Shown here piece after piece: positions 27,786 to 43,491 of a DNA stretch of 64,000 nt (position 1 is its first letter; every line of letters starts with the position of its first letter). Source of the stretch: Sulfitobacter maritimus. GTDB taxonomy: Bacteria; Pseudomonadota; Alphaproteobacteria; Rhodobacterales; Rhodobacteraceae. Location: the NCBI RefSeq assembly GCF_013346665.1, contig NZ_JABVBB010000021.1, forward strand, positions 558,001 to 622,000, given 5' to 3'. The notes under the pieces are model-generated. The model made no database searches. It worked only from the letters and a program-made list of their open reading frames with translations, and was not told where the DNA came from. Both the position numbers and the translations under genes were made by a program.

Positions 27786-28184
27786 TTAGCGCTTGATCAC
27801 CGCGTCGGCTTCAATCTCAAGCTTGGCTTCATCCTCAATGAGGTCGGCCACAACCACCATTGCCATGGCCGGGAAATGCTTGCCCAAAATCTCACGATAG
27901 GCGCGGCCCACGTCTTTTTGCGCGGCAAGATATTCTTTCTTATCCGTTACATACCATGTCAGACGCATGATATCCTCGGGCGTGCCACCAGCAGCTTCGA
28001 CGACATCACGGATGTTTTGCAGCGCCTGTTTCATCTGGCCGATAAAGTCATGGCATTCGAATTTCTGTTCGGCGTTCCAGCCGATCTGACCGCCCACAAA
28101 CAGATGGCCATCCGCGCTCAACATACCGTTGGCATAGCCTTTGGCGGGGGCCCAACCTTCGGGCTGGATAACTTGATGCGACAT
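27786..28184 (-). CDS. Rid-family (YjgF/YER057c) deaminase-like protein, last gene of the anthraniloyl-CoA operon
   Basis: A 132-residue chorismate-mutase-like Rid protein: GYANGMLSADGHLFVGGQIGWNAEQKF near the N-terminus and KLEIEADAVIKR at the C-terminus. At the place of the catalytic arginine of canonical RidA (PARSC... in E. coli) this protein has methionine (M107 in FPAMAMVV). It is therefore probably not a 2-aminoacrylate deaminase but a Rid subfamily member. It lies 23 bases after the importer's last ATPase gene, at the end of the tryptophan/anthranilate operon, so hydrolysis of an enamine or imine made from anthraniloyl-CoA is a reasonable guess. The ATG at 28184 is preferred to an upstream non-ATG start. 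Confidence 0.82.
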   Translation of the reverse strand: MSHQVIQPEGWAPAKGYANGMLSADGHLFVGGQIGWNAEQKFECHDFIGQMKQALQNIRDVVEAAGGTPEDIMRLTWYVTDKKEYLAAQKDVGRAYREILGKHFPAMAMVVVADLIEDEAKLEIEADAVIKR

Positions 28185-28207
28185 GTCGTGTTCCTTTTTG
28201 TTAACAG

Positions 28208-28897
28208 TCACACGCCGAGGAATTGATCGGCGATCTGGGAATCGAGCGCGGGCATCGGACCAGTCCAGACCGAGCGGCCACGTTCGAGAATAACGGCGTG
28301 ATCCGCGACCCGGCGCAGCTCGGCGAGGGATTTGTCCACCACCAAAAGCGCCAGCCCGCTGTCACGTTTCAACTGGGCGACGGCAGCCCAGATTTCTTGG
28401 CGCACGACGGGGGCCAGCCCTTCGGTCGCCTCGTCCAGCAACAACAGTTTCGGGTTGGTCATCAGCGCCCGGCCAATGGCCAGCATCTGCTGCTCCCCGC
28501 CCGAGAGTGCCCCTGCCGCCTGATCGCGCCGCTCGCCCAGACGGGGGAAAAGCGCCACCACGCGCTCCTCGTCCCACGCGCCGGGCCGGGCAGCGGCGAT
28601 GAGGTTCTCATGCACCGTCAGCGGTGCAAAACAACGGCGTCCCTCTGGCACCAACCCCAGCCCCGCCTGCGCGGCGCGGAAACTGGGCAGCCCGCCGATG
28701 TCGCGCCCGTCGAAAGTCACGCTGCCGTGGCTGTGCTTCATCATCCGACAGATCACCTTGATGGTGGAGGATTTGCCCATCCCGTTGCGCCCCATCAGCG
28801 CACAGACCTCGCCTTCCTTAAGCGACAGATCAACGCCAAATAATGCCTGCGTCGGGCCGTAGGACGCCTCGATGCCCTTTAGTTCCAGCAAGCTCAT
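28208..28897 (-). CDS. ABC importer ATP-binding protein (LivF type)
   Basis: A 229-residue ATPase with Walker A GRNGMGKSSTIK, signature LSGGEQQMLAIGRALM and Walker B LLLLDEATEGLAP. It belongs to the branched-chain amino acid importer family. Its start overlaps the LivG-type gene by four bases. It is the last of five importer genes inside the tryptophan/anthranilate operon; the substrate is therefore likely an aromatic compound of that pathway, which is inferred from position. Confidence 0.88.
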   Translation of the reverse strand: MSLLELKGIEASYGPTQALFGVDLSLKEGEVCALMGRNGMGKSSTIKVICRMMKHSHGSVTFDGRDIGGLPSFRAAQAGLGLVPEGRRCFAPLTVHENLIAAARPGAWDEERVVALFPRLGERRDQAAGALSGGEQQMLAIGRALMTNPKLLLLDEATEGLAPVVRQEIWAAVAQLKRDSGLALLVVDKSLAELRRVADHAVILERGRSVWTGPMPALDSQIADQFLGV

Positions 28898-29649
28898 GCC
28901 GCGTCCTCCTCGCCCAGATAAGCCACGCGCACCTGTGGGTCGGCCTTGATCTCTGCTGCCGTGCCGGTGGCGATAATCTGGCCGTAAACCAGCACCGAAA
29001 TACGGTCCGCCAGTGCGAAAACCGCATCCATGTCATGTTCCACCAGCAGGATTGGCGCCTCGGCCCGCAGCCCATCAAGGAAACCGGTCAGCGCTTTCGA
29101 GCCGCCTGCCCCGAGACCCGCCATTGGCTCATCCATCAAGAACACCTTGGGCCGCAGCGTCAGCGCCACGGCAACCTCCAACTGTCGGCGTTGCCCGTGC
29201 GACAGATCGGCGGTGCGCTTGGCTGCATGGTCCGCGAGGCCCACAAGTTCCAACGCCCGCAGCGCCTCCTCCCGCAACTCCTTCTGCCGCATCACCGGGG
29301 CAAAGAAGCGCATCACCCGGCCCGACTGCCCAAGCGCGCCCAGCACGGCGTTTTGCAACACGGTATATTCCATCGCCAGCGAGGAGATTTGAAAGGTGCG
29401 GCCTAGCCCCGCCCGCGCACGTTGCACGGTGCTCAGCGGTGTCACGTCCTGCCCCGCAAAATGCACCGTGCCACTGTCTGAGCGTAGCCCGCCCGCGATT
29501 TGTTTAATCAACGTCGACTTGCCCGCGCCGTTGGGGCCGATCAACGCGTGAATCTCGCCGGGTTTCAAGGTCAGTGACACATCGTCAGTGGCCTTCAACG
29601 CGCCAAAGCTCTTGTGCAGGTTGCGCACATCCAACAGCACCTCAGTCAT
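28894..29649 (-). CDS. ABC importer ATP-binding protein (LivG type)
   Basis: A 251-residue ATPase with Walker A GPNGAGKSTLIKQI, signature LSHGQRRQLEVAVAL (the LivG variant of LSGGQ), Walker B VFLMDEPMAGLG and switch region LLVEHDMDAVFALADRI. It overlaps the LivM-type permease by eight bases and the LivF-type ATPase by four, so translation of the importer genes is coupled. Confidence 0.9.
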   Translation of the reverse strand: MTEVLLDVRNLHKSFGALKATDDVSLTLKPGEIHALIGPNGAGKSTLIKQIAGGLRSDSGTVHFAGQDVTPLSTVQRARAGLGRTFQISSLAMEYTVLQNAVLGALGQSGRVMRFFAPVMRQKELREEALRALELVGLADHAAKRTADLSHGQRRQLEVAVALTLRPKVFLMDEPMAGLGAGGSKALTGFLDGLRAEAPILLVEHDMDAVFALADRISVLVYGQIIATGTAAEIKADPQVRVAYLGEEDAA

Positions 29650-30625
29650 GGGCCACCTCCCGTCCGGCGATAAGGCCGATCATGCCACCCCGCGCGAAAA
29701 GCACGACAAGCAAGAGCAGCAGCCCCAGATAGATGTGCCAGAACTCCGAGAGCCCGCCCAAGACATGCTCCAGCAAGATAAACAACGCGGCACCCGCCAC
29801 CGGGCCAAAGAGCCGTCCCACCCCGCCGAGGATGACGAAGATCATGATTTCGCCACTGGTCTGCCAAGAGAACATCGTCGGGCTGACAAAGCGATTGAGG
29901 TCGGCAAACAGCGCCCCCGCCAGCCCGGTCACAGCGCCAGAGATGACAAAGGCCACCAGCCGCAGTTTGAAGGGCGCAAGGCCCACGGCCTCGACCCGTT
30001 CCGCATTCTGCCGCGCCGCCGAGAGGGCCAGACCGAAAGGCGCACGAGCGAGACGCCCGGCAAAGAACAGGACCGCCGCGAGAATGACAAAAGCGATGCC
30101 AAAGAAAGTCAGCGGATCGAGCGTGTTCAGCCCCGGAAAGCCATTGCGCACATAGATCGACAGCCCGTCCTCGCCCCCGTAGGCGGGCCAAGAAATCGCG
30201 AAGTAGAACAACATCTGCCCGAAGGCCAGCGTGACCATAATGAAATAGACGCCCGAGGTGCGCAGCGATAGTGCGCCGATTAGCAGCGCCGCCAGCGCGG
30301 AAACCGCCAGCGCCACCAGCCAGATCACCGGCATGGACTTGGTGCCTTCGATCAGAAACGGGCTTTCCATGATCGGCGTGTAGCTTTGCGCATGTGCCGC
30401 GAGGATGCCCATCGCATAGCCGCCCAGCCCAAAGAAAGCCGCATGGCCAAAGCTGACCAACCCCCCGAGCCCAAGCGCGATGTTCAGCCCCACGCCCGCT
30501 AAGGCAAGGATCGCAGCCTTGGTCGCCAGCGTGATGATAAAGGGCTCGTCCAGCGCAAAGGCGGCCAGTGCAGTCGCGGGCAGCAGCAGGAAGAGGAAAG
30601 TGTTAAGGATTGTTTCGCGGGTCAT
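29642..30625 (-). CDS. ABC importer permease (LivM type)
   Basis: A 327-residue membrane protein: AILALAGVGLNIALGLGGLVSFGHAAFFGLGGYAMGI and the LGGVGRLFGPVAGAALFILLEHVLG segment are LivM-type. The ATG at 30625 is one base after the LivH stop; an open frame continues upstream inside LivH but is not the start. It forms the channel with the LivH-type permease. Confidence 0.88.
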   Translation of the reverse strand: MTRETILNTFLFLLLPATALAAFALDEPFIITLATKAAILALAGVGLNIALGLGGLVSFGHAAFFGLGGYAMGILAAHAQSYTPIMESPFLIEGTKSMPVIWLVALAVSALAALLIGALSLRTSGVYFIMVTLAFGQMLFYFAISWPAYGGEDGLSIYVRNGFPGLNTLDPLTFFGIAFVILAAVLFFAGRLARAPFGLALSAARQNAERVEAVGLAPFKLRLVAFVISGAVTGLAGALFADLNRFVSPTMFSWQTSGEIMIFVILGGVGRLFGPVAGAALFILLEHVLGGLSEFWHIYLGLLLLLVVLFARGGMIGLIAGREVAHD

Positions 30626-30626
30626 C

Positions 30627-31544
30627 TTACGCCTCCCCAAAGAGGCCGGTGGGTTTGAACAGCAAGACCCCCGCCATAAGAATGTAAATTGACATGGAGG
30701 CCAGCGAGGAGCCGACCGAAGTGGCTGCCGAAGCCTCCATGAAATTGGCAAAGAACAGCGGCAGCAGGACCGAGCCGAGCGTGTCCGTCAACCCCACCAG
30801 CAACGCCCCGATAAGCGCGCCCTTGATCGAGCCGATGCCGCCGATGACGATGACCACGAAAGCAAGGATTAGCACCGGCTCGCCCATGCCCACCTGCACC
30901 GATTGGATCGCGCCGACCAGCGCGCCCGCCAGCCCGGCCAGCGCCGCACCAAGGGCAAAGATCAACGTATAGAGCTTGGCAATGTCGATGCCCAAGGCGG
31001 CAATCATCTCGCGGTCCGCTTCGCCCGCGCGGATCTGGATGCCGATGCGGGTGCGTGCAATCAGCAGGAAAAGCCCCGCCGCAATCGCCAGCCCAACGCC
31101 GATGATCACCAGGCGGTACAGCGGATATTGGATGCCCCCCGGCAGCATCACCGGGCCGGAAAGCGCCGCCGGAATGTCGAGGAATAGCGGAAAGGAGCCA
31201 AAGAGAAACCGCGTCCCTTCGGAGAAAATCAGGATCAGCGCAAAGGTGGCTAACACTTGGTCAAGGTGATCGCGGTCATAAAGCCTGCGGATCACCGTCA
31301 TCTCGATCAGACAGCCAGCGAGCGCCGCAGCGGCCAGTGCCGCCACCAGTGCCAGCAGAAACGACCCCGTGGCCGCCGCCACCGCCGCCGCCGCAAAAGC
31401 GCCAACCATATAGAGCGAGCCATGCGCGAGGTTGATCAGCCCCATGACCCCGAAAATCAGCGTCAGCCCTGCCGCCATCAAGAACAGCATGACCCCGGAT
31501 TGAACCCCGTTTAACACCTGTTCGATGAGCAGGATGAATGACAT
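30627..31544 (-). CDS. ABC importer permease (LivH type)
   Basis: A 305-residue membrane protein, LivH family: LNGVQSGVMLFLMAAGLTLIFGVMGLINLAHGSLYMVGAFAAAAV at the start and FVVIVIGGIGSIKGALIGALLVG later. It lies downstream of the binding-protein gene after a 95-base gap containing a GC-rich hairpin. No unusual features. Confidence 0.88.
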   Translation of the reverse strand: MSFILLIEQVLNGVQSGVMLFLMAAGLTLIFGVMGLINLAHGSLYMVGAFAAAAVAAATGSFLLALVAALAAAALAGCLIEMTVIRRLYDRDHLDQVLATFALILIFSEGTRFLFGSFPLFLDIPAALSGPVMLPGGIQYPLYRLVIIGVGLAIAAGLFLLIARTRIGIQIRAGEADREMIAALGIDIAKLYTLIFALGAALAGLAGALVGAIQSVQVGMGEPVLILAFVVIVIGGIGSIKGALIGALLVGLTDTLGSVLLPLFFANFMEASAATSVGSSLASMSIYILMAGVLLFKPTGLFGEA

Positions 31545-31553
31545 TTAGCAAAG

Positions 31554-31574
31554 TCTCCCGGCGCGCCGGAGAGA
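31554..31574 (-). other. Hairpin between binding-protein gene and LivH-type permease gene
   Basis: A 12-base palindrome CCGGCGCGCCGG (31558-31569) is flanked by TCTC and AGAGA, which extend the stem with a one-base offset. No T-run follows on the minus strand. It occupies the same position as hairpins in the two other importer operons of this window. Confidence 0.5.
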
Positions 31575-31639
31575 TGGTCCGGCGTGAAAGTGGTAAAACG
31601 TCGGCCCCGGCGCGTGTTCAGCACCGGAGCCGCGCGGGA

Positions 31640-32785
31640 TTACATTTTGCAGTCAGCCGCGTAGGCGTCAGCATGATCGGTCAGCGAGGGGCCGATAAGC
31701 TTGTTGGTATAAACATCGCCCTCTTTCACCACTTCGCGCACGTAGTAGTCCTGCACTGGGTGCTGGTTGTTGCCAAAGGAAAACTTCCCCCGCACGCTGT
31801 CAAAATCCGCTTCTTTCAGCGCCTCACCAAAGGCTTCGGCGTCCGACACGTCAGCCTTGTCCATCGCGCTCAAGAGCAGGTTCGCGGTGTCGTAGCCCTG
31901 GCTTGCATAGAGCGATGGCAGACGGTCGTATTCCTCTTGGAAGGCGGCCACGAACTCTTTGTTCGCCTCATTGTCGAGGTCTTTGTTCCACTGGCTGGTG
32001 TTTTTGATGCCAACAGCAGCTTCACCCACGGCCTGCAAGATGCCTTGGTCAAAGCTAAAGGCCGGGCCGACAACCGGTAGGTCGACGCCGGAGTTAGCGT
32101 ATTGCTTGAGGAAGGAAATCCCCATCCCACCGGGCAGAAAGAAGAACACGCTATCGGCACCCGACGCACGGATCTGCGCGATCTGAGCGGCATAGTCGGT
32201 CTGGCCCAGATCGGTATAGACCTCCCCCGCAGCCTCACCCTCATAGGTGCGCTTATAGCCCGTCAGCGCGTCCTTGCCCGCTGGATAGTTCGGCGCCAGC
32301 ATGAAGGTGTTTTTGTAGCCCGCGTCATTGGCATAAGCCCCCGCCGCTTCGTGCAGGTTGTCGTTCTGCCATGCCACGTTGAAGTAAAGCGGGTTGCAGC
32401 CCTTGCCGGCCAGTGCCGAAGGACCGGCGTTGGGCGACAGGTAGAACTTGCCCTGCGCGGTCGCCGCCGGCACCACGGCCATGGCGAGGTTGGACCAGAT
32501 GATGCCAGTCATCACGTCGACCTTCTCGGACTGGATCATCTTGTCGGCCAGTTGCACGGCAATCTCTGGCTTGCGCTGGTCGTCTTCGACCACGACCTCA
32601 AGGTTCTCATTCCCGGCCATCTTGGTCGCCAGCAGGAACCCGTCGCGCACATCAATGCCAAGGCCCGCGCCGCCGCCTGACAGGGTGGTGATCATGCCGA
32701 CCTTCACCTTGCCCTCTTCGGCCCATGCGCCGCCCGCTGCCAATGCCGCGACCGAGGCCGCCATCACGAGTGATTTCATTTTCAT
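31640..32785 (-). CDS. ABC importer substrate-binding protein, aromatic-pathway importer
   Basis: A 381-residue type-I periplasmic-binding protein with a Sec signal peptide (MKMKSLVMAASVAALAAGGAWA). The mature part begins KVKVGMITTLSGGGAGLGIDVRDGFLLA, typical of the branched-chain amino acid/aromatic-acid binding group. It is downstream of kynureninase by 87 bases and upstream of the permease genes, inside an operon for tryptophan and anthranilate breakdown. Likely ligands are tryptophan, kynurenine, anthranilate or a related aromatic acid; this is inferred only from gene context. Confidence 0.85.
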   Translation of the reverse strand: MKMKSLVMAASVAALAAGGAWAEEGKVKVGMITTLSGGGAGLGIDVRDGFLLATKMAGNENLEVVVEDDQRKPEIAVQLADKMIQSEKVDVMTGIIWSNLAMAVVPAATAQGKFYLSPNAGPSALAGKGCNPLYFNVAWQNDNLHEAAGAYANDAGYKNTFMLAPNYPAGKDALTGYKRTYEGEAAGEVYTDLGQTDYAAQIAQIRASGADSVFFFLPGGMGISFLKQYANSGVDLPVVGPAFSFDQGILQAVGEAAVGIKNTSQWNKDLDNEANKEFVAAFQEEYDRLPSLYASQGYDTANLLLSAMDKADVSDAEAFGEALKEADFDSVRGKFSFGNNQHPVQDYYVREVVKEGDVYTNKLIGPSLTDHADAYAADCKM

Positions 32786-32872
32786 TTCCTTCTCCCTTGG
32801 TTGGTTTGGGCCTCTTTGATGGGCCCGCTTTGTTGGGTCGTTTTGCCAGCTTAGCGAGGGGATTTGCCCCTG

Positions 32873-34060
32873 TCAGGTCACCCTCGCGCGGGTCTTGTAT
32901 TTTTCGTTGTCCCAAAGACGGTTCTCCATCACATCGCGAATGATCGCGACGGCTTTGGAGACATCCTCGGCATCGATATAAAGCGGCGTAAAACCAAAGC
33001 GCATGATATCGGGCGCACGGAAGTCGCCAATCACGCCGCGGTCGATCACGGCTTGCATGGCGGCGTAGCCTTCCTCAAACCGGAACGACACCTGACTGCC
33101 CCGCTCGGCGCTGTTGCGCGGGCTGGCGAGGGTGAGTTGTGGCACGTCGCGCTCGACTTCTTCGATGAACTGCTCCTGCAACGCGATTGAGGCCGCGCGC
33201 AACTCTTGCATGTCCACATCGGCCCAAAGCTCCATCGCCACTTCCAGCGCGGTCAGTTGGATCACAGGCGGCGTGCCAACGCGCATCCGCTCAATCCCCT
33301 GTCCGGGCTGGTACGCAAGATCGAAGGCAAAGGGCTGGCGATGCCCCAGCCACCCGGCCAGTGCAGGTTGCACCGCATCCGCCAAATCAGGCCGCACATA
33401 GATGAACCCCGGCGCGCCCGGCCCGCCGTTGAGGTATTTGTAGGTGCAGCCCACGGCAAATTCGCAGTTGCTCCCGGCCAGATCGACCGGCAGCGCCCCC
33501 GCCGAATGTGCCAGATCCCAGATCATCACCGCACCGCTGGCATGGGCCAGTTCGGTCATCGCCTTCATGTCGTGTTTGCGACCCGTACGATAATCGACCT
33601 CGGTGAGCATCACGGCGGCGATGTCTTCGCCAATCACGTCCTTCACCTTTTCAGGTGCGACGCTGCGCAGCTCATAGCCCTGCTCTAACAGCCCGACCAA
33701 GCCTTCGGCCATATAAAGATCCGAAGGGAAGTTACCGGTGTCCGATAGGATCACCTTGCGCCCTTGCCGCAGCTTGACCGCCGAGGCCAGCGCCTGAAAC
33801 ACCTTGATCGACAGCGTGTCGCCCATAACGACCGATCCTTCAGGCGCACCGACGACTTTGGCCACCATATTGCCAACCCGCGTGGGCTGTTCCATCCACC
33901 CGGCTTGGTTCCAACCACGGATCAACATCTCGCCCCATTCGTCCGCGATCATCTCCTGCACACGTGCCGCAGCGGCTTTGGGCAACGGCCCCAAAGAGTT
34001 GCCGTCGAGGTAGATGACCCCGTCGGGTAGAACAAACTGATCCTTTTTCAAAACAGACAC
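32873..34060 (-). CDS. kynU: Kynureninase
   Basis: A 395-residue PLP enzyme of the aminotransferase fold that cleaves kynurenine to anthranilate and alanine. Key segments are YLDGNSLGPLP near the N-terminus, WDLAHSAGALPVDL, and the PLP lysine K208 in CTYKYLNGGPGAPGFIYV. Family length is normal. It starts directly after kynA with no gap and precedes the importer genes. Together with the ligase upstream it links kynurenine to anthraniloyl-CoA. Confidence 0.95.
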   Translation of the reverse strand: MSVLKKDQFVLPDGVIYLDGNSLGPLPKAAAARVQEMIADEWGEMLIRGWNQAGWMEQPTRVGNMVAKVVGAPEGSVVMGDTLSIKVFQALASAVKLRQGRKVILSDTGNFPSDLYMAEGLVGLLEQGYELRSVAPEKVKDVIGEDIAAVMLTEVDYRTGRKHDMKAMTELAHASGAVMIWDLAHSAGALPVDLAGSNCEFAVGCTYKYLNGGPGAPGFIYVRPDLADAVQPALAGWLGHRQPFAFDLAYQPGQGIERMRVGTPPVIQLTALEVAMELWADVDMQELRAASIALQEQFIEEVERDVPQLTLASPRNSAERGSQVSFRFEEGYAAMQAVIDRGVIGDFRAPDIMRFGFTPLYIDAEDVSKAVAIIRDVMENRLWDNEKYKTRARVT

Positions 34061-34888
34061 TTACAGCGCTCCTCTCACATGCCAAAGCTCGGGGAAGAGT
34101 TCCACTTCGAGCATTTTGCGCAGATAGGTCACACCTGACGTGCCTCCGGTGCCGCGCTTAAAACCGATGATACGTTCCACGGTGGTGACGTGGTTAAACC
34201 GCCAACGCCGGAAATAGTCTTCGAGGTCGACCAGTTTCTCAGCCAGTTCGTATAGTTCCCAATGGGTTGTGGGGTCTTCATAAACCTTCTGCCAGAGGTC
34301 CTGCACCTCCTGCTTCGGCGCCCAACCCTTCGGCTCCGGCGCACCGGCCAAGGGGGCTTCGCCCATGCGCGCGCACATCAGGTCGATCGCCACTTGATAA
34401 AGGCTCGGCTTTTCCATTTCCGCCACCAGCGCCGCATGTGGCTCCGGCGTATGCTCATGGAGCTTGGTCAACGCAGCGATACGGTTGCCAAGCAGGTACT
34501 CGATCAGGCGGTACTGATAGGACTGAAAGCCAGAGGACGCGCCGAGGTGCGGGCGAAAGGCCGTATATTCACTCGGCGTCATGGTGCGCAACACGTCCCA
34601 CGCGGAATTGAGCTGCTCAAAAATGCGCGCCACACGGGTCAACATCTTGAAACTCTGACGCAATTCCCCGGCTTGCAGTGCTTCGCGACAGGCCGTCAAC
34701 TCATGGATCGCCAGCTTCATCCAAAGTTCCGACGTCTGGTGCTGGATGATGAACAACAGCCCATCATGCGCCATGTCGAGCGGGTTTTCGGTGGTCAGGA
34801 TCTGGTCCAGCCCAAGGTAATCGCCATAGGACTTGTCCTTGGCGAAACTCATCTTTGCGCCTTTGGAGGCTTCGTCGAAGGTGCTCAT
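34061..34888 (-). CDS. kynA: Tryptophan 2,3-dioxygenase
   Basis: A 275-residue heme dioxygenase that opens the indole ring of tryptophan to N-formylkynurenine. Diagnostic blocks are LLFIIQHQTSELWMKLAIHEL, SSGFQSYQYRLIEYLLGNR and KRGTGGTSGVTYLRKML. It overlaps the ligase gene by four bases (ATGA) and abuts kynU. Kynurenine formamidase (kynB), which should act between the two, is not beside them. Confidence 0.95.
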   Translation of the reverse strand: MSTFDEASKGAKMSFAKDKSYGDYLGLDQILTTENPLDMAHDGLLFIIQHQTSELWMKLAIHELTACREALQAGELRQSFKMLTRVARIFEQLNSAWDVLRTMTPSEYTAFRPHLGASSGFQSYQYRLIEYLLGNRIAALTKLHEHTPEPHAALVAEMEKPSLYQVAIDLMCARMGEAPLAGAPEPKGWAPKQEVQDLWQKVYEDPTTHWELYELAEKLVDLEDYFRRWRFNHVTTVERIIGFKRGTGGTSGVTYLRKMLEVELFPELWHVRGAL

Positions 34889-36507
34889 TTATCCTCTCTC
34901 AGCGCGAAACGCTGAATTTTACCGGTGGCGGTTTTCGGCAGTTCTTTAAGAAACCGGATCTCGCGCGGGTATTTATAGGGCGCGATTGTCGCTTTAACAT
35001 GGTCTTGCAAGGTCTTGATCGTCACGGCATCTTCGGCTGTGCCTTCGACCAGAACCACATGCGCCTGCACGATAGAACCGCGTGCTTCGTCCGGAGCGGC
35101 GACCACGCCACATTCGCTGACAAAGGGGTGGCTCAGCAATGCGGCCTCAACCTCTGGCCCTGCGATGTTGTAGCCGGAACTGATAATCATATCATCGTTG
35201 CGGGCGGCGAAATGCAGGTAGCCGTCCTCATCCATGGTGAAACTATCGCCGGTGATGTTCCAGCCGTCCTTCACATAGTCCGCCTGCCGGGCATCACCGA
35301 GATAACGGCAACCGGTTGGCCCGCGCACAGCGAGCCGACCGACCTCACCCCGCGGCACTTCATTGCCGTCGGCATCAATCACCCGCGCCTCATAGCCGGT
35401 GACAGGCTTGCCGGTACAGGCGGCGCGGTGGTCGTCGAAACGGTTGGAAATGAAGATATGCAGCATCTCTGTCGCGCCGATCCCGTCGAGCATCGGCTTG
35501 CCGGTCTTTTCCTTCCACTCATAATAGACGGGCGCGGGCAAGGTCTCCCCCGCGGAAACAGCGGCGCGTAGGCTGCTGAGGTCCGCGCCCTCTTCCATCG
35601 CCTGTAACATGGCGCGGTAGGCCGTGGGCGCGGTGAAACAGACAGTCGCTTTGTACTTCTCGATGATCTCAATCATATTCGGCGGGCTGGCGGTTTCCAG
35701 TAGGGTCGCCGCTGCGCCGAAGCGCAGGGGGAAAACGGCGAGACCGCCAAGGCCGAAGGTAAAGGCCAAGGGGGGCGAGCCCACAAAAACGTCCTCTGGC
35801 GTCACACCAAGCACTTCGCGGGCATAGCCATCTGCGATGATCAGAAGGTCGCGATGAAAATGCATTGTTGCTTTGGGGTTACCGGTTGTTCCTGATGTGA
35901 ATCCCAGCAAGGCGACATCGTCCTGGGCGGTTTGAACCGCCTCGAACTGAACCGGTTTTTCCAGCGCCAGACGGTCGAGCTCGGCGTCATGGTTGCTGGT
36001 GCCATCAAACCCTACCACGGTCTTGAGGTACGCGGAGGATTTCGCACAGGTCGTCATCTCATCCATCAGGCGGGTGTCGCAGAAGGCGTGACTGATTTCA
36101 GCCTTATCAACAATCGCCGACAACTCCCCCGCCCGCAGCATGGGCATGGTATTGACCACCACCGCCCCCGCCTTGGTCGCGGCCAACCAACAGGCCACCA
36201 TGGCAGGGTTATTGGCCGAGCGGATCAGCACCCGGTTGCCGGGCCTTAAGCCAAGGTCTTCGACCATCGCGCTGGCCAGACGGTTGGTCCAGTCCGCCAG
36301 TTCCTTATAGGTCCGGCGGCGGCCATTCCCGATAAGGGCGGTGCGATCTCCAAACCCTTTTTCAACCATAGAATCAGTGAGTTCGACGCCAACATTCAAC
36401 CGTTCGGGATAGTCAAAGCCGGTTAGGTTAAAGTCCGGCCACTGATCCATGGGCGGAAGGTTATCGCGGGTGAACGTATCTTCATGTGCGCTTTGGTACA
36501 GCTTCAT
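34885..36507 (-). CDS. 2-aminobenzoate-CoA ligase (benzoate-CoA ligase family)
   Basis: A 540-residue AMP-forming acyl-CoA synthetase: P-loop-like [51 protein letters not shown] and the C-terminal [15 protein letters not shown] with its catalytic lysine. The benzoate/2-aminobenzoate ligase group is indicated by sequence style and by the adjacent kynureninase, which makes anthranilate, and by the 2-aminobenzoyl-CoA monooxygenase in the same operon. It overlaps both neighbours by four bases. A generic aryl-CoA ligase remains possible. Confidence 0.85.
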
Positions 36508-37655
36508 CCCATGGCCCCCAATGTCTGACGCGCGATGACGACACGTTGCACGTCAGACGCGCCTTCGTAAATGCGCAAGGCCCTGATTTCGCGATAAAGC
36601 CGCTCAACCGCCTCGCCATGGCGTACGCCGTCACCGCCATGCAGTTGCACCGCCGTGTCGATGACTTTTTGCGCTTGATCAGTGGCAAAGAGTTTTGCCA
36701 TTGCCGCTTCGCGTGTCACCCGCGGGGCGCCGCTGTCTTTGGTCCAGGCCGCGCGGTAGACGAGCAATGCCGCGGCATCGACGTCGAGCGCCATGTCTGC
36801 GATATGGCCCTGCACCAGCTGCAGCTCGCTCAGCGGGGCGCCCTGTACTTGGCGCGTGGTCACGCGGTCCAGCGCTTCATCCAGCGCCCGCCGCGCAAAG
36901 CCCAAAGCGGCAGCGGCGACGGTGGAGCGGAACACATCCAACACCGACATGGCGATGGCAAAGCCGCGCCCAGCCTCGCCCAGAAGCGCCGAGCCGGGCA
37001 GTTTCACATTGTCGAAATGCAGCGTCGCCAGCGGGTGTGGTGCCATGACCTCCAACCGTTCCTCGACCATCAGCCCCGGCGTGTTGGCAGGCACGATAAA
37101 GGCCGAAAGCCCCTTGGCCCCCGGCGCCTCCCCTGTGCGGGCGAAAACGGTGTAGACATCGGCAATGCCACCGTTGGATATCCACGTCTTGCGCCCGTCG
37201 AGGACATAGCCGTTGCCATCTGCCTTGGCGGTCATGGTGGAGTTTGCCACGTCAGAGCCAGACTGCGGCTCGGTCAGCGCAAAGGCGGAGATCGCTTGCC
37301 CTGAGCGGGTCTTGGGCAGCCATTCGGCCTTCTGTTCATCCGTACCAAAAAGCGAAATCGCCCCGGTGCCAAGCCCTTGCATGGCAAAGGCAAAATCCGC
37401 CAGCCCGTCATGGCGCGCCAGCGTTTCGCGGATCAGGCAGAGCGTGCGGACGTCAAGCACCTCGTCGCCTTCCGCCCCGCTATGACGCAGCCAGCCGTCC
37501 TGCCCCATCATCGTCACAAGGTCACGGCAAGCCCCATCGGTATCGCCGTGATCGACATTCTTTAACTCTTGCCCGGCCCATTTATCCAGCGCCAGCGCCA
37601 ATTCTTTGTGGCGCGGCTCAAAAAAGGGCCAGTCAAGAAAACTTTTGTCAGCCAT
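36504..37655 (-). CDS. Acyl-CoA dehydrogenase
   Basis: A 383-residue flavoprotein of the acyl-CoA dehydrogenase family. FAD/substrate blocks [16 protein letters not shown] and [14 protein letters not shown] are present, and the catalytic base is probably the glutamate in [21 protein letters not shown]. It overlaps the ligase by four bases. In the Azoarcus 2-aminobenzoate clusters an acyl-CoA dehydrogenase is also found; it probably acts on the ring-reduced CoA thioester, which is inferred. Confidence 0.88.
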
Positions 37656-37703
37656 GATTTACGCCTCCCCGCGTAGTTTTTCTTTTGGCTTTTCGTTTGT
37701 GGC

Positions 37704-38504
37704 TCAGTCCCCTTCGAAGACTGGGCGTTCTTTGGCAACGAAGGCGTTGTAAGCCCGCTCAAAGTCGCCGGTCTGCATACAGATCGCCTGTGCCTGCGCC
37801 TCGGCCTCAATCGCCTGTTCGATGGACATGGCCCATTCCTGCGCCAGCATCGTCTTGGTCATCATATGCGCAAAATTCGGACCCGCCTGAATTTTTTGCG
37901 CCAGCTTCAGTGCTTCGTCTTCCAACGTCTCGCCTGTCACAAGACGGTTGTAGAAGCCCCAGCGTTCGCCCTCTTCAGCGGACATAGCGCGGCCGGTGTA
38001 GAGCAGTTCGGCTGCCCGCGTCTGGCCAATGATGCGCGGCAGGATCGCGCAGGCACCCATGTCACAGCCCGCAAGGCCCACACGGGTAAAGAGGAAAGCC
38101 GTCTTAGCCTCCGCCGTGGCCAGCCGTAGGTCAGAGGCCATAGCGATGATCGCGCCTGCGCCGACACAGACGCCATCCACCGCCGCGATGACAGGCTTGC
38201 CGCAGTTCACGATCGCCTTGACCAGATCGCCGGTCATGCGGGTAAAACGCAGCAGTTCTTTCATGTTCATCCGGGTCAAAGGCCCAATGATATCATGCAC
38301 ATCGCCGCCGGAGCTAAAGTTGCCACCATTGGAGCCAAAGATCACCACATCGACGTCATCAGCATAGACGAGATCGCGGAACCAGTCGCGCAGCTCGGCG
38401 TAGCTGTCAAAGGTCAGCGGGTTCTTGCGGTCAGGCCGGTCGAGCCGCACGGTGGCGATCCGGTCTTTAATCTCGCACTGAAAATGTTTGACATCACTGC
38501 GCAT
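37704..38504 (-). CDS. Enoyl-CoA hydratase/isomerase family protein
   Basis: A 266-residue crotonase-fold protein. Oxyanion-hole blocks are [12 protein letters not shown] and [27 protein letters not shown]; a glutamate-poor active site around [20 protein letters not shown] suggests a hydrolase or isomerase variant is possible. The ATG at 38504 overlaps the MarR gene by 11 bases; an upstream frame lies inside marR. It probably processes the cyclic or ring-opened CoA intermediates. Confidence 0.87.
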
Positions 38505-38955
38505 TGGCTTGTTCCTTTTCTTCCGTTTGAGCGGCGAACGCCTGTAGGCGGTCCGCCATAGCGCGGGCTTCCTCGGCTGAGATGCCGCGCAGTTTTTCGT
38601 TGATCCAGTCTTCATGCGCCTGCGCTTGGCGGGCGAATTGCGCAGCACCTTCGGGCGTCAGCCGCAGCAGCATCGCACGACGGTCCCCCGGCACGGCGAT
38701 ACGCTCGACCAGCCCCTCTTCGCTGAGCCGGTCCGCAATGCCGGTGACATTGCCGTTGGACACCCGCAGCACACCGGAAAGCTGGCTCATTTTCAGCCCC
38801 TCGGGATGGCGCGACAGGGCGGACATCACGTCGAACCGGGGCAAGGTCGTCTTGTGCTCACGGCGCAGGATGTCGCGCAACTCCTGCTCAAGGCCGCGCA
38901 CGACTTTCAGCAGGCGCAGCCAGAGGCGGACGCGATCCTTGGCGGCGTTGCTCAA
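38494..38955 (-). CDS. MarR-family transcriptional regulator of the anthranilate operon
   Basis: A 153-residue winged-helix regulator: [70 protein letters not shown] is the MarR DNA-binding domain with its wing. It lies between the SDR and the hydratase genes with overlaps on both sides, so it is part of the operon it probably controls. MarR proteins of aromatic-CoA pathways commonly release DNA on binding an aryl-CoA; the ligand here is unknown. A candidate operator lies upstream of the first gene. Confidence 0.88.
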
Positions 38956-39683
38956 ATCTCGCCTCCTGAGAGGGACAGTGTGTGGCCGTTCACCGCCGCG
39001 GCAGCGTCAGAGAGGAGATAAAGCGCAGCCGCTGCGACTTCGCCGGTGTCGACAAAGCGGTTCTGCGGGCTGGCGCGTTTCAGGATGGCACGGGCTTCGT
39101 CGGCGCTTTTGCCGGTGGTGTTGGTGATGTTCTCGACCGAGCGTTCCAACAGCGGTGTGTCGATGAAACCGGGGCAGATCGCGTTGACGGTGATGCCCGT
39201 ACGCGCGACTTCCAGCGCCAACGCACGGGTAAGGCCGATGACACCGTGTTTCGCGGCAACATAGCCCGCGACGTAGGGGTAGCCCTTGAGGCCGGCGGTC
39301 GAGGCGACGGCGATCAAGCGGCCTCGTTTTGCCTCTTTCATCTCCGCCAATGCGGCCTGCCAGACGTTAAAGACCCCGGTGACATTGACGGCGAACATAT
39401 CGTTCATGTCCTGCGCGGTGATCTTGTCGAAAGGCGCGGAATGGGCGGCGCCGGCATTGGCGATGACACCGGTGATCGGGCCATCTTCAGCGCGGGCGGC
39501 GGCAAAGGCGTCGGCCACGGCCTTGGCATCGGTGACGTCGCAGGTCTGGAACGGCAGCCCTTGTTCGCGCAACGGCGCTTCGCGGCGGCCCATGATGGTA
39601 ACCTTGGCCCCGCTATCGGCCACGGCGCGGGCGATCTCTGCCCCGACGCCGGAGCCGCCGCCGGTGATGACGATATGGCTCAT
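38952..39683 (-). CDS. SDR-family oxidoreductase
   Basis: A 243-residue short-chain dehydrogenase: nucleotide motif [23 protein letters not shown], catalytic serine near VASTAGLKG and the YxxxK motif YVAAKHG. It resembles 3-hydroxyacyl-CoA/3-oxoacyl reductases. The ATG at 39683 overlaps the end of the monooxygenase/reductase gene by four bases. It probably oxidises a hydroxyacyl-CoA intermediate of the anthraniloyl-CoA route. Confidence 0.87.
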
Positions 39684-41971
39684 ACTTTCTCCATCTCCGC
39701 CGCGCGGTCGGCCAAGCGCCATGTCTGATCGCGGCCCGGCCCATAAGGCAGTGGCCAATCAGCATGGCGGTCGCCAATGGCAGCGGCGGCATGGAGCGTC
39801 CAATAAGGATCGGCCAGATGCGGCCGCGCAAGGCAGACCAGATCGGCCCGCCCCGCCATGAGGATCGAATTCACGTGATCGGCCTCATAGATATTGCCCA
39901 CCGCCATGGTCTTGATCCCACCATCGTTGCGGATGCGGTCGCTGAAGGGGGTCTGGAACATGCGCCCATAGACGGGCTTGGCTTGTTTCGAGGTCTGGCC
40001 CGCCGACACATCGATGATATCGGCCCCGGCCGCGCTAAACATCCGCGCAATTTTCACGGCTTCTTCGGGGGTTACGCCGTCTTCTTCAACCCAATCCGTG
40101 GCCGAGATACGCACCGCCATCGGCTTTTCTTCGGGCCAAGCGTCGCGCATTGCTTTGAACACTTCCAGCGGGTAGCGCATGCGGTTTTCCAAGCTGCCGC
40201 CGTACTCATCCTCGCGCTGGTTCGACAGGGGCGAGATGAAGGACGAGATCAGATAGCCGTGGGCCGCGTGCAACTCAATCATGTCAAAGTTAGCGCGATG
40301 GGCCATGCGGGTGGCCTCAACAAATTCGTCGCGGATCACGTCCATGTCTTCACGGGTCGCGGCTTTTGGCACGGCGTTCTTTTCCGACCACGGGATCGCG
40401 GAAGCAGAGATGATTTCCCAATTGCCGGCTTTCAATGGCGCGTCCATCTCTTCCCAGCCGACCTGCGTGGAGCCTTTGCGCCCCGAATGGCCGATCTGGC
40501 AGCAGATTTTTGCGTCGGTCTCGGCATGAACGAAATCGGTCAGGCGCTTCCATGCGGCCTCATGCTCTGTCGCGTAAAGGCCCGGACAGCCCGGCGTAAT
40601 GCGACCCTGCGGCGAGACGCAGGTCATTTCGGTATAGACCAGCCCCGCTCCGCCTTTGGCGCGTTCGGCGTAGTGAATGAGGTGCCAGTCGGTCGGGCAG
40701 CCATCGACCGCCTTGTACTGCGCCATGGGCGAGACAACGATGCGGTTATTAAGTTTCATGTCACGCAGTTGGAAAGGTGCGAACATCGGGGCGCGGATGG
40801 GGCCGTTGGTATCGGCACCCGCCTGTTCAAGGAACCATTTTTCGGCTCCCTCCAGCCATTTAGGATCGCGCTCGCGCAGGTTCTCATGGCTGATGCGCTG
40901 GCTCCGGGTTAGCATGGAGTAGTTCAATTGGACCGGGTCGAGGTCAAGGTAACGCTCGACATCTTCGAACCATTCGACGGAGTTACGCGCCGCCGATTGC
41001 AGACGCAGCACCTCAAGACGGCGGGCGTCTTCGTATTTCTCGAACGCAGTGGCGAGATTGGGGTCATCGGTGACGTGTTTTGCGAGTGAGATCGCGGATT
41101 CCAGCGCTAGTTTCGTCCCCGACCCAATCGAGAAATGCGCCGTGGCCGAGGCATCGCCCAGCAACACGACATTCTCATGGCTCCACTTTTCGCAGAGCAC
41201 ACGGGGGAATTTGATCCAGGCCGAGCCGCGGATGTGGCTGGCGTTGGTCATCAGCTTGTGGCCATCGAGGTGGTCTTTGAAGATTTCCTCGCAGATCGCG
41301 ATGGTCTCTTCTTGGGTCTTTTCGCCAAAGCCATAGGCATCGAATGTCTTTTGGCTACATTCGACGATGAAGGTCGCCGTGTCTTTGTCGAACTGATAGG
41401 CGTGGACCCAGATCCAGCCCTTGTCGGTCTTTTCAAAGATAAAGGTGAAGGCGTTGTCGAATTTCTGATGGGTGCCGAGCCAGACAAAGGGGCAGCGGCG
41501 CACGTCAATGTCGGGCTTGAATGTGTCTTCGAACTCCATCCGGGTTTTTGAATTCAACCCGTCTGCTGCGACGACAAGATCATAGTCCTTCATATAGTCA
41601 GACGCGGCTTTGACCTCGGTCTCGAACTGAAGATTCACGCCCAACTCCCGCGCCCGGTTTTGCAAGATCAGCAAGAGCCGCTTGCGCCCGATGCCGCAGA
41701 AACCGTGACCGGAGCTGTGGATCACATTGCCTTTGTGATGCAGAGCAATGTCGTCCCAATAAGCGAAATGGCTACGAATCTCCTTGGCGGAAACCGGATC
41801 GTTGACCTCAAGATTGTCGAGCGTTTCATCCGAAAGCACCACGCCCCAGCCAAAGGTATCATCAGCGCGGTTGCGTTCCAGCACGGTCACATCGGCATCG
41901 GGCTGCCGCAGTTTCAGCGAGATCGCGAAGTACAGCCCCGCAGGGCCGCCGCCAAGACAGATTGCACGCAT
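39680..41971 (-). CDS. 2-aminobenzoyl-CoA monooxygenase/reductase (salicylyl-CoA 5-hydroxylase/old-yellow-enzyme fusion)
   Basis: A 763-residue two-domain flavoenzyme. Residues 1-about 375 are an FAD monooxygenase of the salicylyl-CoA hydroxylase type ([63 protein letters not shown]). Residues about 385-763 are an old-yellow-enzyme FMN reductase ([48 protein letters not shown]). This pairing is the hallmark of the Azoarcus-type enzyme that hydroxylates and reduces 2-aminobenzoyl-CoA. It is the first gene of the operon. The ATG at 41971 fits the FAD motif. Confidence 0.92.
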
Positions 41972-42045
41972 CGAAAATCCCTTCTGGTTCGGTTTGGGGG
42001 GAAGCCTAAGTCCGGTTCCGTTTTCGTTCAAGGGTAAATATTTCA

Positions 42046-42056
42046 TGCTTAAAGCA
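42046..42056. promoter_or_regulatory. Palindrome upstream of the anthraniloyl-CoA operon, candidate MarR operator
   Basis: TGCTT-A-AAGCA is a perfect odd palindrome 75 bases before the monooxygenase/reductase start, in an AT-richer stretch. Its size and position suit a MarR-family site. The 179-base divergent region also serves the DgoK-like gene. Confidence 0.4.
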
Positions 42057-42150
42057 ATTAGGCGACGGCAAGCCGATCTGGGCTTCCGGATTGAACACCG
42101 CGCCGCTGCGGCCTATGCCAGCGACAGGATCAAGGATGAAAGGCGACAGG

Positions 42151-43026
42151 ATGGCAGAGGTCAAACAGGTAGAATGGCTGGCCGTGGAATGGTTTGAACA
42201 CCGCCTTTCGGTCTGGGCGATGCAAGGCAGCACCGCGCTGGAGGCAGCAGTTTGCGCCACTTCTGCCGCCGACGAGGACACCTTTGTCGATACGCTGACC
42301 CAGCTTATCGCGCCGTTGAACCTGCCCGCAGGTCTGCCTGTCTTTGCAGCCGGTCTGCCGGGGCGGTCGGATGTCTCCCCCCGCACCGTGCCATGCGATG
42401 CGATGGCGGCAGAAACGGTTGCGCGGACCAGTGCAGGGTTTGAGTTGCACATCATCCCCGGCCTGCGGCAGCACTCGCCCAGCGGCCTCATGCAGGGTGC
42501 AGAAACCCGAATCGCGGGATTTCTAAGCCTGAACAAAGACTGGGATGGCGTCATCTGTCTGCCGGGTGCCACGTCTGTTTGGGCGCAGGTCAGCGCGGGG
42601 GAAGTGGTAAGCTTCCAGAGTTTCTTGACCGGCGAATTGATCGACATGCTTGGCGCCGACGGGCCGGCGGAAGTGGATACGGCACTGGATGACACAGCAT
42701 TTGACGAAGCGCTCAGCGACGGGCTGTCGCGGCCCGAGCGTTTGGCGGGGCGGTTGGCCTCGTTGCGTGCGGACCGCGCCCTTGGCGCCCTGCCCGCCCC
42801 CACGGCGCATGCGCGTTTGGCGGGTATATTGATTGGTGCCGAACTTGCCGCCGCACGGCCCTATTGGTTGGGTCAATCCTTGGCCGTGATGGGGCCGGAG
42901 GGTCAGGCGAGCCTCTATATGCGGGCCTTGTCGCAGCAAGGGGCGATGGCAACGCAGGCCGATGCCGCGCGGATGGCTTTGGCCGGGATTTGCGCTGTGC
43001 GCCGTGCTGTAGGCAACGCAGGCTGA
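42151..43026 (+). CDS. DgoK-like protein with diverged kinase motifs
   Basis: A 291-residue protein related to 2-dehydro-3-deoxygalactonokinase: the HIIPGLRQHSPSGLMQGAETRIAGFL, CLPGATSVWAQVSAGEVVSFQSFLTGEL and AGILIGAELAAARPYWLGQSLAVMG blocks follow the family closely. The N-terminal phosphate-binding motif, usually DWGTTRLRAW-like, reads EWFEHRLSVW, and the LPGTHSKW motif reads LPGATSVW. These changes raise doubt about kinase activity. The ATG at 42151 has AAAGG seven bases upstream; earlier starts lack one. No aldolase or galactonate gene is nearby. Confidence 0.75.
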   Translation: MAEVKQVEWLAVEWFEHRLSVWAMQGSTALEAAVCATSAADEDTFVDTLTQLIAPLNLPAGLPVFAAGLPGRSDVSPRTVPCDAMAAETVARTSAGFELHIIPGLRQHSPSGLMQGAETRIAGFLSLNKDWDGVICLPGATSVWAQVSAGEVVSFQSFLTGELIDMLGADGPAEVDTALDDTAFDEALSDGLSRPERLAGRLASLRADRALGALPAPTAHARLAGILIGAELAAARPYWLGQSLAVMGPEGQASLYMRALSQQGAMATQADAARMALAGICAVRRAVGNAG

Positions 43027-43038
43027 CGGCCCTGCCCG

Positions 43039-43491
43039 TCAGTCTTTTTTGCGCATATCCAGTGCCACGAGGTCTTCGAGCATATCGAGCAGGTTTTCCA
43101 TCCGCTCCTTGCCAAACCGCGCTTCGAAATCGGCAAAAAGTGCTGCGGCATCCTCGGCATGGTCTTGCAGTATCTGACAGCCCTTGTCGGTCACCGTCAC
43201 GATAGATTTACGCCCATCGTTTGGATCGCTGGACCGGGTCAGCAGCCCTTCCTCCTCCATCGCACGCAGCATCCGAGTGAGGCTGGGCAACAGCAGGCAG
43301 GTGGCATGAGCAAGCGCGGTTTGCTCCATCGGGCCGGATTCGTCCAACACGCGGATCACGCGGAACTTCTGCTCTGAGATGCCGCTTTCGTTCAGGATTT
43401 CGCGGATCGGACCCATCACTCGTTCGCGCGCGCGCAGCAAAGCAATCGGCAAAGATCGGGCCGTGCGGCGCAGTGGGGGTTGGGTGACCAT
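43039..43491 (-). CDS. MarR-family regulator, HpaR-like
   Basis: A 150-residue winged-helix regulator. The motif pattern SLPIALLRARERVMGPIREILNESGISEQKFRVIRVLDESGPMEQTALAHATCLLLPSLTRMLRAMEEEGLL resembles regulators of homoprotocatechuate (hpa) degradation. The gene is divergent from an aromatic-L-amino-acid decarboxylase, and a palindrome lies 23 bases before its start. A regulator of aromatic-compound metabolism is plausible; the effector is unknown. Confidence 0.82.
   Translation of the reverse strand: MVTQPPLRRTARSLPIALLRARERVMGPIREILNESGISEQKFRVIRVLDESGPMEQTALAHATCLLLPSLTRMLRAMEEEGLLTRSSDPNDGRKSIVTVTDKGCQILQDHAEDAAALFADFEARFGKERMENLLDMLEDLVALDMRKKD

Follow-up and report, generated by a model that had tools for sequence, protein, structure and literature searches.

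Clusters of abm genes for the aerobic metabolism of 2-aminobenzoate (anthranilate) were reportedly described in Azoarcus (Aromatoleum) evansii by Schuehle and colleagues in 2001, and are said to encode a ligase, the 2-aminobenzoyl-coenzyme A (CoA) monooxygenase/reductase (ACMR), three beta-oxidation-type proteins, a MarR regulator, an ABC binding protein and a 'translation inhibitor', that is, a Rid protein. Within the Rhodobacterales, Phaeobacter inhibens DSM 17395 reportedly degrades tryptophan via kynurenine and handles 2-aminobenzoate as in Azoarcus, in work attributed to Drueppel and colleagues (2014). Here we describe a minus-strand operon of 14 same-direction genes in Sulfitobacter maritimus, also of the Rhodobacterales, which runs from the ACMR start at position 41971 to position 27786 of the window, the 64,000-nt stretch of contig NZ_JABVBB010000021.1 that was analysed and whose numbering is used throughout. 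Judged from its gene content, from genomic co-occurrence, from recurrent linkage and from a shared predicted operator, this operon is very probably a tryptophan/kynurenine/anthranilate catabolic unit, recurrent, apparently co-regulated and built from known modules, with a route like the one reported for P. inhibens.

Compared with the reported Azoarcus cluster, the operon in the window contains the same eight kinds of genes and, unlike that cluster, adds tryptophan 2,3-dioxygenase (TDO), kynureninase (KynU) and four further importer genes. The route as such is reportedly already known in Rhodobacterales. No paper was found on the joining of both halves in one operon, on their common operator or on the variant Rid protein, in a search that covered the top of long result lists from a library with few subscription journals. 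With the same coverage, nothing was found on 2-aminobenzoate in Phaeobacter, on tryptophan or kynurenine in P. inhibens, or on anthraniloyl-CoA in Rhodobacterales. Relevant passages on the aerobic 2-aminobenzoate system of Azoarcus occur in PMC4539516, which reviews the reaction, and in PMC8388817. The genome reconstruction of Cupriavidus metallidurans CH34 lists kyn and abm genes, the same two gene sets as in the window, although anthranilate did not support growth of the strain; in the sections available, linkage of kyn and abm is not stated (PMC8879955). In Arthrobacter sp. Rue61a, anthranilate-CoA ligase activity was shown for two gene products, and anthranilate-grown cells contained anthraniloyl-CoA and a C7H8O4 CoA ester that might be cyclohexanedione-carboxyl-CoA; the anthranilate of this strain derives from quinaldine, not from tryptophan, and the string kynurenin- is absent from the main text (PMC3534580).

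Gene content and proposed route

In the direction of transcription, the operon encodes ACMR, an SDR oxidoreductase, a MarR-family regulator, a crotonase (enoyl-CoA hydratase family protein), an acyl-CoA dehydrogenase, an aryl-CoA ligase, TDO, KynU, an ABC substrate-binding protein, two permeases, two ATPases and a Rid-family protein, with starts adopted at ATG 41971 for ACMR, ATG 39683 for the SDR, ATG 38504 for the crotonase and ATG 30625 for the second permease. All 14 genes of the families named in the earlier note were found, and the families were confirmed by profile matches. The same note had described the genes as mostly overlapping by 4-11 bases; this applies to eight of the 13 junctions (seven if the Rid gene starts at ATG 28184) and does not extend to the other five, which are gaps of 0, 1, 48, 87 and 95 bases.

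ACMR (39680..41971, 763 amino acids) combines an FAD monooxygenase half (PF01494) and an Old-Yellow-Enzyme half (PF00724, Oxidored_FMN) in one protein, the fused layout that had been claimed for it, and scores 1304 bits on NF006101 (cut-off 1078). Among the best 60 of 146 solved chains matching ACMR, none spans both halves, each covering either the Old-Yellow-Enzyme half or the monooxygenase half (VioD), and among the best 80 of 594 relatives the closest named one is from Sulfitobacter sp. HGT1 (88%). The aryl-CoA ligase (34885..36507; PF00501) is probably a 2-aminobenzoate-CoA ligase by sequence comparison; its best solved match is the anthranilate-CoA ligase 4wv3 (6.6e-89), ranked above benzoate-CoA ligases, and it falls just below the cut-off of the benzoate-CoA ligase model TIGR02262 (364.4 against 375.25). 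The kynA and kynU functions of the bacterial kynurenine pathway are both represented. TDO (34061..34888) is over the Pfam cut-off of PF03301 and below the NCBI equivalog cut-off (TIGR03036, 359.6 bits against 390.7), and residues 9-273 of its 275 align with 2nox, the best solved TDO match, at 1.6e-100. KynU (32873..34060) scores 284.8 bits on TIGR01814 (cut-off 246.4), matches the Pseudomonas enzyme 1qz9 at 1.3e-131 and, counted along the alignment, retains its W64, G281 and T282, residues characteristic of enzymes that prefer kynurenine to 3-hydroxykynurenine. A fused ACMR, an adjacent ligase, beta-oxidation-type genes, a MarR regulator, a binding protein and a Rid protein, the reported hallmarks of an abm cluster, are all present, and on these sequence grounds ACMR and its neighbours form a cluster of the Azoarcus type for aerobic 2-aminobenzoyl-CoA metabolism, into which TDO and KynU have been inserted.

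In the proposed route, TDO would open tryptophan to N-formylkynurenine, a formamidase encoded elsewhere (a candidate lies on contig C21) would release kynurenine, KynU would cut kynurenine into alanine and anthranilate, and the ligase would convert anthranilate to anthraniloyl-CoA. After ACMR, the product would be processed by the SDR (38952..39683; PF00106), the crotonase (37704..38504; NF006107, 477.7 bits, cut-off 330), the acyl-CoA dehydrogenase (36504..37655; PF00441/PF02770/PF02771) and the Rid protein, in some order. The importer would probably take up anthranilate or a similar aromatic acid, and the MarR regulator (38494..38955; PF01047) would probably repress at a palindrome at 42038-42057, repression being relieved, by analogy, by a CoA-thioester intermediate. 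Clusters on Marinovum algicola plasmid pMaD4 and on a Leisingera thetidis plasmid additionally encode a 3-hydroxyacyl-CoA dehydrogenase and a 3-oxoadipyl-CoA-type thiolase, which hints that the pathway ends in acetyl-CoA and succinyl-CoA; the window operon is without either gene.

Co-occurrence, linkage and a shared predicted operator

Co-occurrence was assessed in 244 genomes drawn at order level (the rows shown being all of the same genus or family), with thresholds of E 1e-200 or better for ACMR and E 1e-60 or better for KynU. ACMR was found in 106 genomes, TDO in 150 and both in 101, so that TDO is present in 101 of the 106 genomes with ACMR versus 49 of the 138 without it (odds ratio 36.7, Fisher p 3.4e-24, although p-values overstate independence among these related genomes). 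ACMR and TDO lie on the same contig in 59 of the 101 genomes and no more than 15 kb apart in 34 of them (23 on the same strand), counts that are lower bounds because the assemblies are broken. KynU was detected in 226 of the 244 genomes, and its presence alone is therefore uninformative.

The arrangement of the genes was compared across 91 loci, namely the best 80 of the 594 ACMR relatives in named genomes together with 11 plasmid loci, a sample biased to close relatives; 64 of them had enough flanking sequence for neighbourhood counts (well-flanked loci). Downstream of ACMR on the same strand, these 64 loci contain the SDR in 63 cases, the MarR gene in 61, the crotonase in 62, the acyl-CoA dehydrogenase in 62 and the ligase in 56, whereas TDO is located within the cluster or close to it in 24, and KynU in 17. 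The order ligase-TDO-KynU is shared by the window, Sulfitobacter and Shimia, the order ligase-KynU-TDO is found in Thalassospira, Chelativorans, Mesorhizobium and others, and TDO stands ahead of the ligase in Roseibaca and Cognatishimia; elsewhere TDO is outside the ACMR operon. Thalassospira marina pCSC3H3 carries KynU and TDO within its ACMR operon, like the window, and M. algicola pMaD4 carries them beside it; in both the gene order differs from that of the window and, unlike there, an alpha/beta hydrolase or esterase gene is a neighbour. In Phaeobacter sp. CECT 5382, no TDO or KynU was found within 10 kb of ACMR. The gene order itself recurs in Sulfitobacter sp. HGT1, where it matches the window through the second permease, at which that stretch ends, and in S. 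sediminilitoris, where it matches through KynU, and the linkage recurs in several orders. With linkage scored within the stretch covered for each locus, a quickly built ACMR tree (65 rows, with 18 of its 62 inner branches left open) shows at least 11 changes of TDO/KynU linkage, counted regardless of direction; a count of 15 arrangement changes was set aside as inflated by a separate label for the window, although the HGT1 locus shares its order. Chance clustering of the two halves is rejected by the co-occurrence of ACMR and TDO and by the recurrence in named genomes.

The predicted operator is a 20-bp palindrome, TTGCTTTAAGCATGAAATAT on the operon strand, at 42038..42057 (minus strand), 66 bp 5' of the ACMR start. 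It scores 27.0 bits on a symmetrised 20-bp motif model (consensus ATATTTTAAGCTTAAAATAT) derived from k-mer counts over 90 ACMR upstream regions (200 bases before ACMR, from 89 loci and the window), and is the sole site of at least 5 bits in the window; the best shuffled region scores 12.65 bits. GCTTGAA occurs in 67 of the 90 regions, versus no more than nine for any 7-mer after base shuffling, and 88 of the 90 are within five mismatches of the motif core versus six of 90 shuffles, both figures being taken on training data. Across the 89 loci, the site lies at a median of 66 bases 5' of ACMR and scores at least 17 bits in 87. Two other versions of the motif were discarded: a first guess drawn from the window alone, TGCTTTAAGCA, was weakly shared and was replaced by the wider palindrome, and the consensus with two mismatches, searched in the whole genome, was too loose (55 places versus 38 in a reversed control) and was not used for naming regulon members.

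Because the ACMR upstream regions had served as training data, a separate test was made on about 9.8 kb around TDO (six regions were shorter) in 67 ACMR genomes with unlinked TDO and in 46 TDO genomes without ACMR. Sites of at least 17 bits were present in 37 of the 67 versus five of the 46 (p 1.2e-6), whereas with 60 column-permuted motifs the count averaged 0.25 and never exceeded six of 67. Thirty-four of the 37 sites lie no more than 250 bases ahead of a recognised gene (KynU 23, TDO 7, ligase 3, MarR 1) and the other three 310-324 bases ahead of the ligase; read by eye, 36 head a gene run with KynU or TDO, and one (L174) heads a ligase-importer run. In the held-out M. algicola pMaD4, a site of 34.6 bits precedes ACMR and one of 24.1 bits, shared by TDO and the esterase, lies between TDO-KynU and the divergent esterase gene. 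The 91 loci (1.92 Mb) contain 28 further sites of at least 17 bits. One of these stands 63 bases ahead of a TDO-KynU operon that is separate from the cluster (L071), and others stand ahead of importer genes that are likewise separate (L012, L015); for many of the rest, no pathway link is obvious. Since the motif is also found around unlinked TDO, the tryptophan and anthraniloyl-CoA halves look like one regulon. Through co-occurrence, recurrent linkage and the shared operator, the coupling of the two halves put forward in the earlier note is upheld, in that they look functionally coupled.

The operon MarR is the likely protein binding the palindrome. Three of the five sites in the ACMR-less control regions precede MarR-TDO-KynU operons that encode a relative of the operon MarR, and among these TDO regions the site is present in three of three with a related MarR versus two of 43 without. 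At L189, L193 and L194, whose genomes gave no ACMR match at E 1e-200, MarR-TDO-KynU operons with the operator were observed; the regulator may be older than the anthranilate half or may have persisted after it.

Points of doubt and competing interpretations

Several observations weigh against the coupling of tryptophan and anthranilate breakdown in this operon, besides the relatedness of the genomes sampled. Neither TDO nor KynU is present, within the stretch covered, at 40 of the 64 well-flanked ACMR loci, and five of the 106 ACMR genomes (G084, G131, G139, G157 and G170) have no TDO. The operator was not found at 30 of the 67 unlinked TDO regions, so that its rule is not universal, and in four of the 46 ACMR-less genomes it stands before a TDO operon (the fifth control site, L211, does not). 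The importer could have a separate transcript, because the binding-protein gene is set off on its two sides by the 87-bp and 95-bp gaps; no minus-strand terminator-like site was detected in these gaps by a low-power scan (17 sites versus a shuffled mean of 15.0). No formylkynurenine formamidase was recognised among the 14 operon genes by family profile assignment, KynB-type matches in the S. maritimus genome reach only 28.8 and 25.1 bits on TIGR03035 (cut-off 223.05), and the formamidase candidate on contig C21 has no operator, the best nearby site scoring 4.6 bits. Part of the kynurenine could also have another sink, because the genome encodes a 3-hydroxyanthranilate 3,4-dioxygenase (3-HAO), over its cut-off, at C11:19483-19935 and, about 15 kb away, a second KynU (56% identical) at C11:34923-36095.

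The 40 loci without TDO and KynU speak for an interpretation in which the operon serves mainly imported anthranilate, TDO and KynU being passengers and tryptophan no significant substrate, and so does the importer, whose binding-protein gene belongs to the operon at 27 of the 64 well-flanked loci, 14 of the 40 without TDO/KynU and 13 of the 24 with them. This interpretation has to contend with the genome-wide co-occurrence of TDO with ACMR, with the operator by TDO in 37 of the 67 unlinked cases and with linkage that varies repeatedly along the ACMR tree in different gene orders, and we regard it as improbable. It is less probable still that the operon KynU works mainly on 3-hydroxykynurenine, feeding the 3-HAO of the genome in an NAD or 3-hydroxyanthranilate route: the two genes on contig C11 speak for it, but the operon enzyme keeps W64, G281 and T282, residues of kynurenine-preferring enzymes, and by position the second KynU is the better candidate for such a route. 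No operator over 4.6 bits was found by the C11 KynU and 3-HAO genes in the stretches scanned. Among the genes around them are those for TRAP and TctC/TctB transport and for a sulfatase. The least credible alternative is that the fused flavoenzyme is a salicylyl-CoA 5-hydroxylase in a salicylate-degrading cluster, for which the model name of NF006101 (bifunctional salicylyl-CoA 5-hydroxylase/oxidoreductase) speaks, a name taken here as a label and not as substrate evidence, and against which stand the adjacent KynU, which makes anthranilate, the nearest solved ligase, which acts on anthranilate, the match of the beta-oxidation-type genes, MarR, binding protein and Rid to the reported Azoarcus 2-aminobenzoate cluster, and the Old-Yellow-Enzyme half, which is what the dearomatising ACMR reaction needs; no recognisable gentisate gene is present among the 14.

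For the tryptophan/kynurenine/anthranilate unit favoured here, the formamidase step would be served from outside the operon. KynB was rejected for this role, no match in the genome being over the cut-off. In Ruegeria pomeroyi an alpha/beta hydrolase gene stands next to TDO; the relative of this hydrolase in S. maritimus, encoded at C21:31106-31879 (47% identity), is a good candidate kynurenine formamidase on sequence similarity. The S. maritimus protein resembles 4e11, the kynurenine formamidase of Drosophila (3.5e-23), is much closer to the unassigned esterase 2pbl (3.8e-97), and contains HGGYW and GHSAG, in agreement with the AFMID type (homology with HGGxW and GxSxG), HGGxW being a formamidase motif. 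In the well-flanked loci, hydrolases of this type lie near ACMR in ten of the 24 with TDO versus four of the 40 without (p 0.005). They are not specific to the operon, since relatives are present in 213 of the 244 genomes and are also paired with KynU in the absence of TDO. In the TDO-less genomes G008, G010, G084, G142 and G222, read by eye, a formamidase-like alpha/beta hydrolase adjoins KynU, as if (formyl)kynurenine came from outside. The 'complete' route from tryptophan to central metabolism that the earlier note took to be implied overstates what the operon encodes: the steps past the monooxygenase/reductase are undefined, no formamidase is included, and the best candidate for it is located elsewhere, on contig C21.

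Importer, Rid protein and biological meaning

The importer is composed of the substrate-binding protein (31640..32785; Peripla_BP_6, PF13458), a LivH-type permease (30627..31544; PF02653), a LivM-type permease (29642..30625; PF02653), a LivG-type ATPase (28894..29649; PF00005 and PF12399) and a LivF-type ATPase (28208..28897; PF00005). The best solved match of the binding protein is 4evq (1.1e-49), which we take to be an aromatic-acid binder of Rhodopseudomonas. Identity to the window protein is 65-83% at loci with TDO/KynU and 51-80% at loci without, with overlapping ranges. Because the importer occurs both with and without TDO/KynU, its cargo is more likely to be anthranilate or another aromatic acid related to it, and the importer could not be assigned to the tryptophan route of which it had been considered a part.

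The Rid-family protein (27786..28211, from GTG 28211, with ATG 28184 as alternative start; PF01042) has, by alignment, methionine at the position of RidA Arg105. Fifty operon Rids (the window and 49 loci) were gathered by similarity to the window protein (scores above 60 bits, genes lying 3' of ACMR on its strand), a procedure that a more distant Rid in the same operon place would escape; methionine occupies this position in all 48 that are readable there, the other two having a gap. The other five Rids of the S. maritimus genome have arginine (four) or serine (one) at this position, and two plasmid-locus Rids outside the operon have one arginine and one serine. The RidA active-site residue Glu120 is not invariant, being Glu in 39 and Gln in nine of the 48. 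According to PMC4433059, the RidA arginine contacts the ligand carboxylate, imine hydrolysis is almost lost when alanine replaces it, and the position is Trp in Rid4/Rid7 and variable in Rid5/Rid6. The operon protein was accordingly rejected as an ordinary RidA, because Met replaces Arg105.

Tentatively, it might instead be a dedicated pathway deaminase for a CoA-bound enamine, within a MarR regulon spanning the tryptophan half, because in this pathway a CoA thioester takes the place of the free carboxylate, Arg105 is replaced by Met and the ACMR product would be an enamine, and in view of the C7H8O4 CoA ester, perhaps cyclohexanedione-carboxyl-CoA, of anthranilate-grown Arthrobacter sp. Rue61a. 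The crotonase could then hydrolytically open the beta-keto ring after deamination by Rid. We know of no enzyme assigned to the deamination step of the 2-aminobenzoyl-CoA pathway. Against this role stand the Gln at the Glu120 position in nine of the 48 operon Rids, the lack of a Rid at 25 of the 64 well-flanked loci (many of them short stretches; all 11 loci with at least 15 kb downstream have one) and enamine hydrolysis that may be spontaneous.

Upstream, the operon is flanked by a predicted 2-keto-3-deoxygalactonokinase gene (42091-43026) and by a second MarR-family regulator of HpaR type (43039-43491, minus strand; TIGR02337, 135.7 bits, over the cut-off), and downstream by zinc ABC genes convergent on it. 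A pyridoxal-dependent decarboxylase (PF00282; 43665-45083, plus strand), whose substrate is possibly an aromatic amino acid, is encoded a few genes from the operon. A 2-dehydro-3-deoxygalactonokinase gene is also found close to the ACMR operon of Sulfitobacter guttiformis plasmid pSG53 (19670-20572), and its presence near both operons is perhaps a trace of a larger transferred block.

Besides a precisely placed predicted operator and a candidate for its regulator, the analysis offers a candidate formamidase and a variant Rid protein. It is relevant to the central steps of the Azoarcus pathway that are still undefined, namely deamination and ring opening. Comparative genomics further suggests that in many alphaproteobacteria the breakdown of tryptophan and the CoA-dependent breakdown of anthranilate are one regulated route rather than two that share an intermediate.

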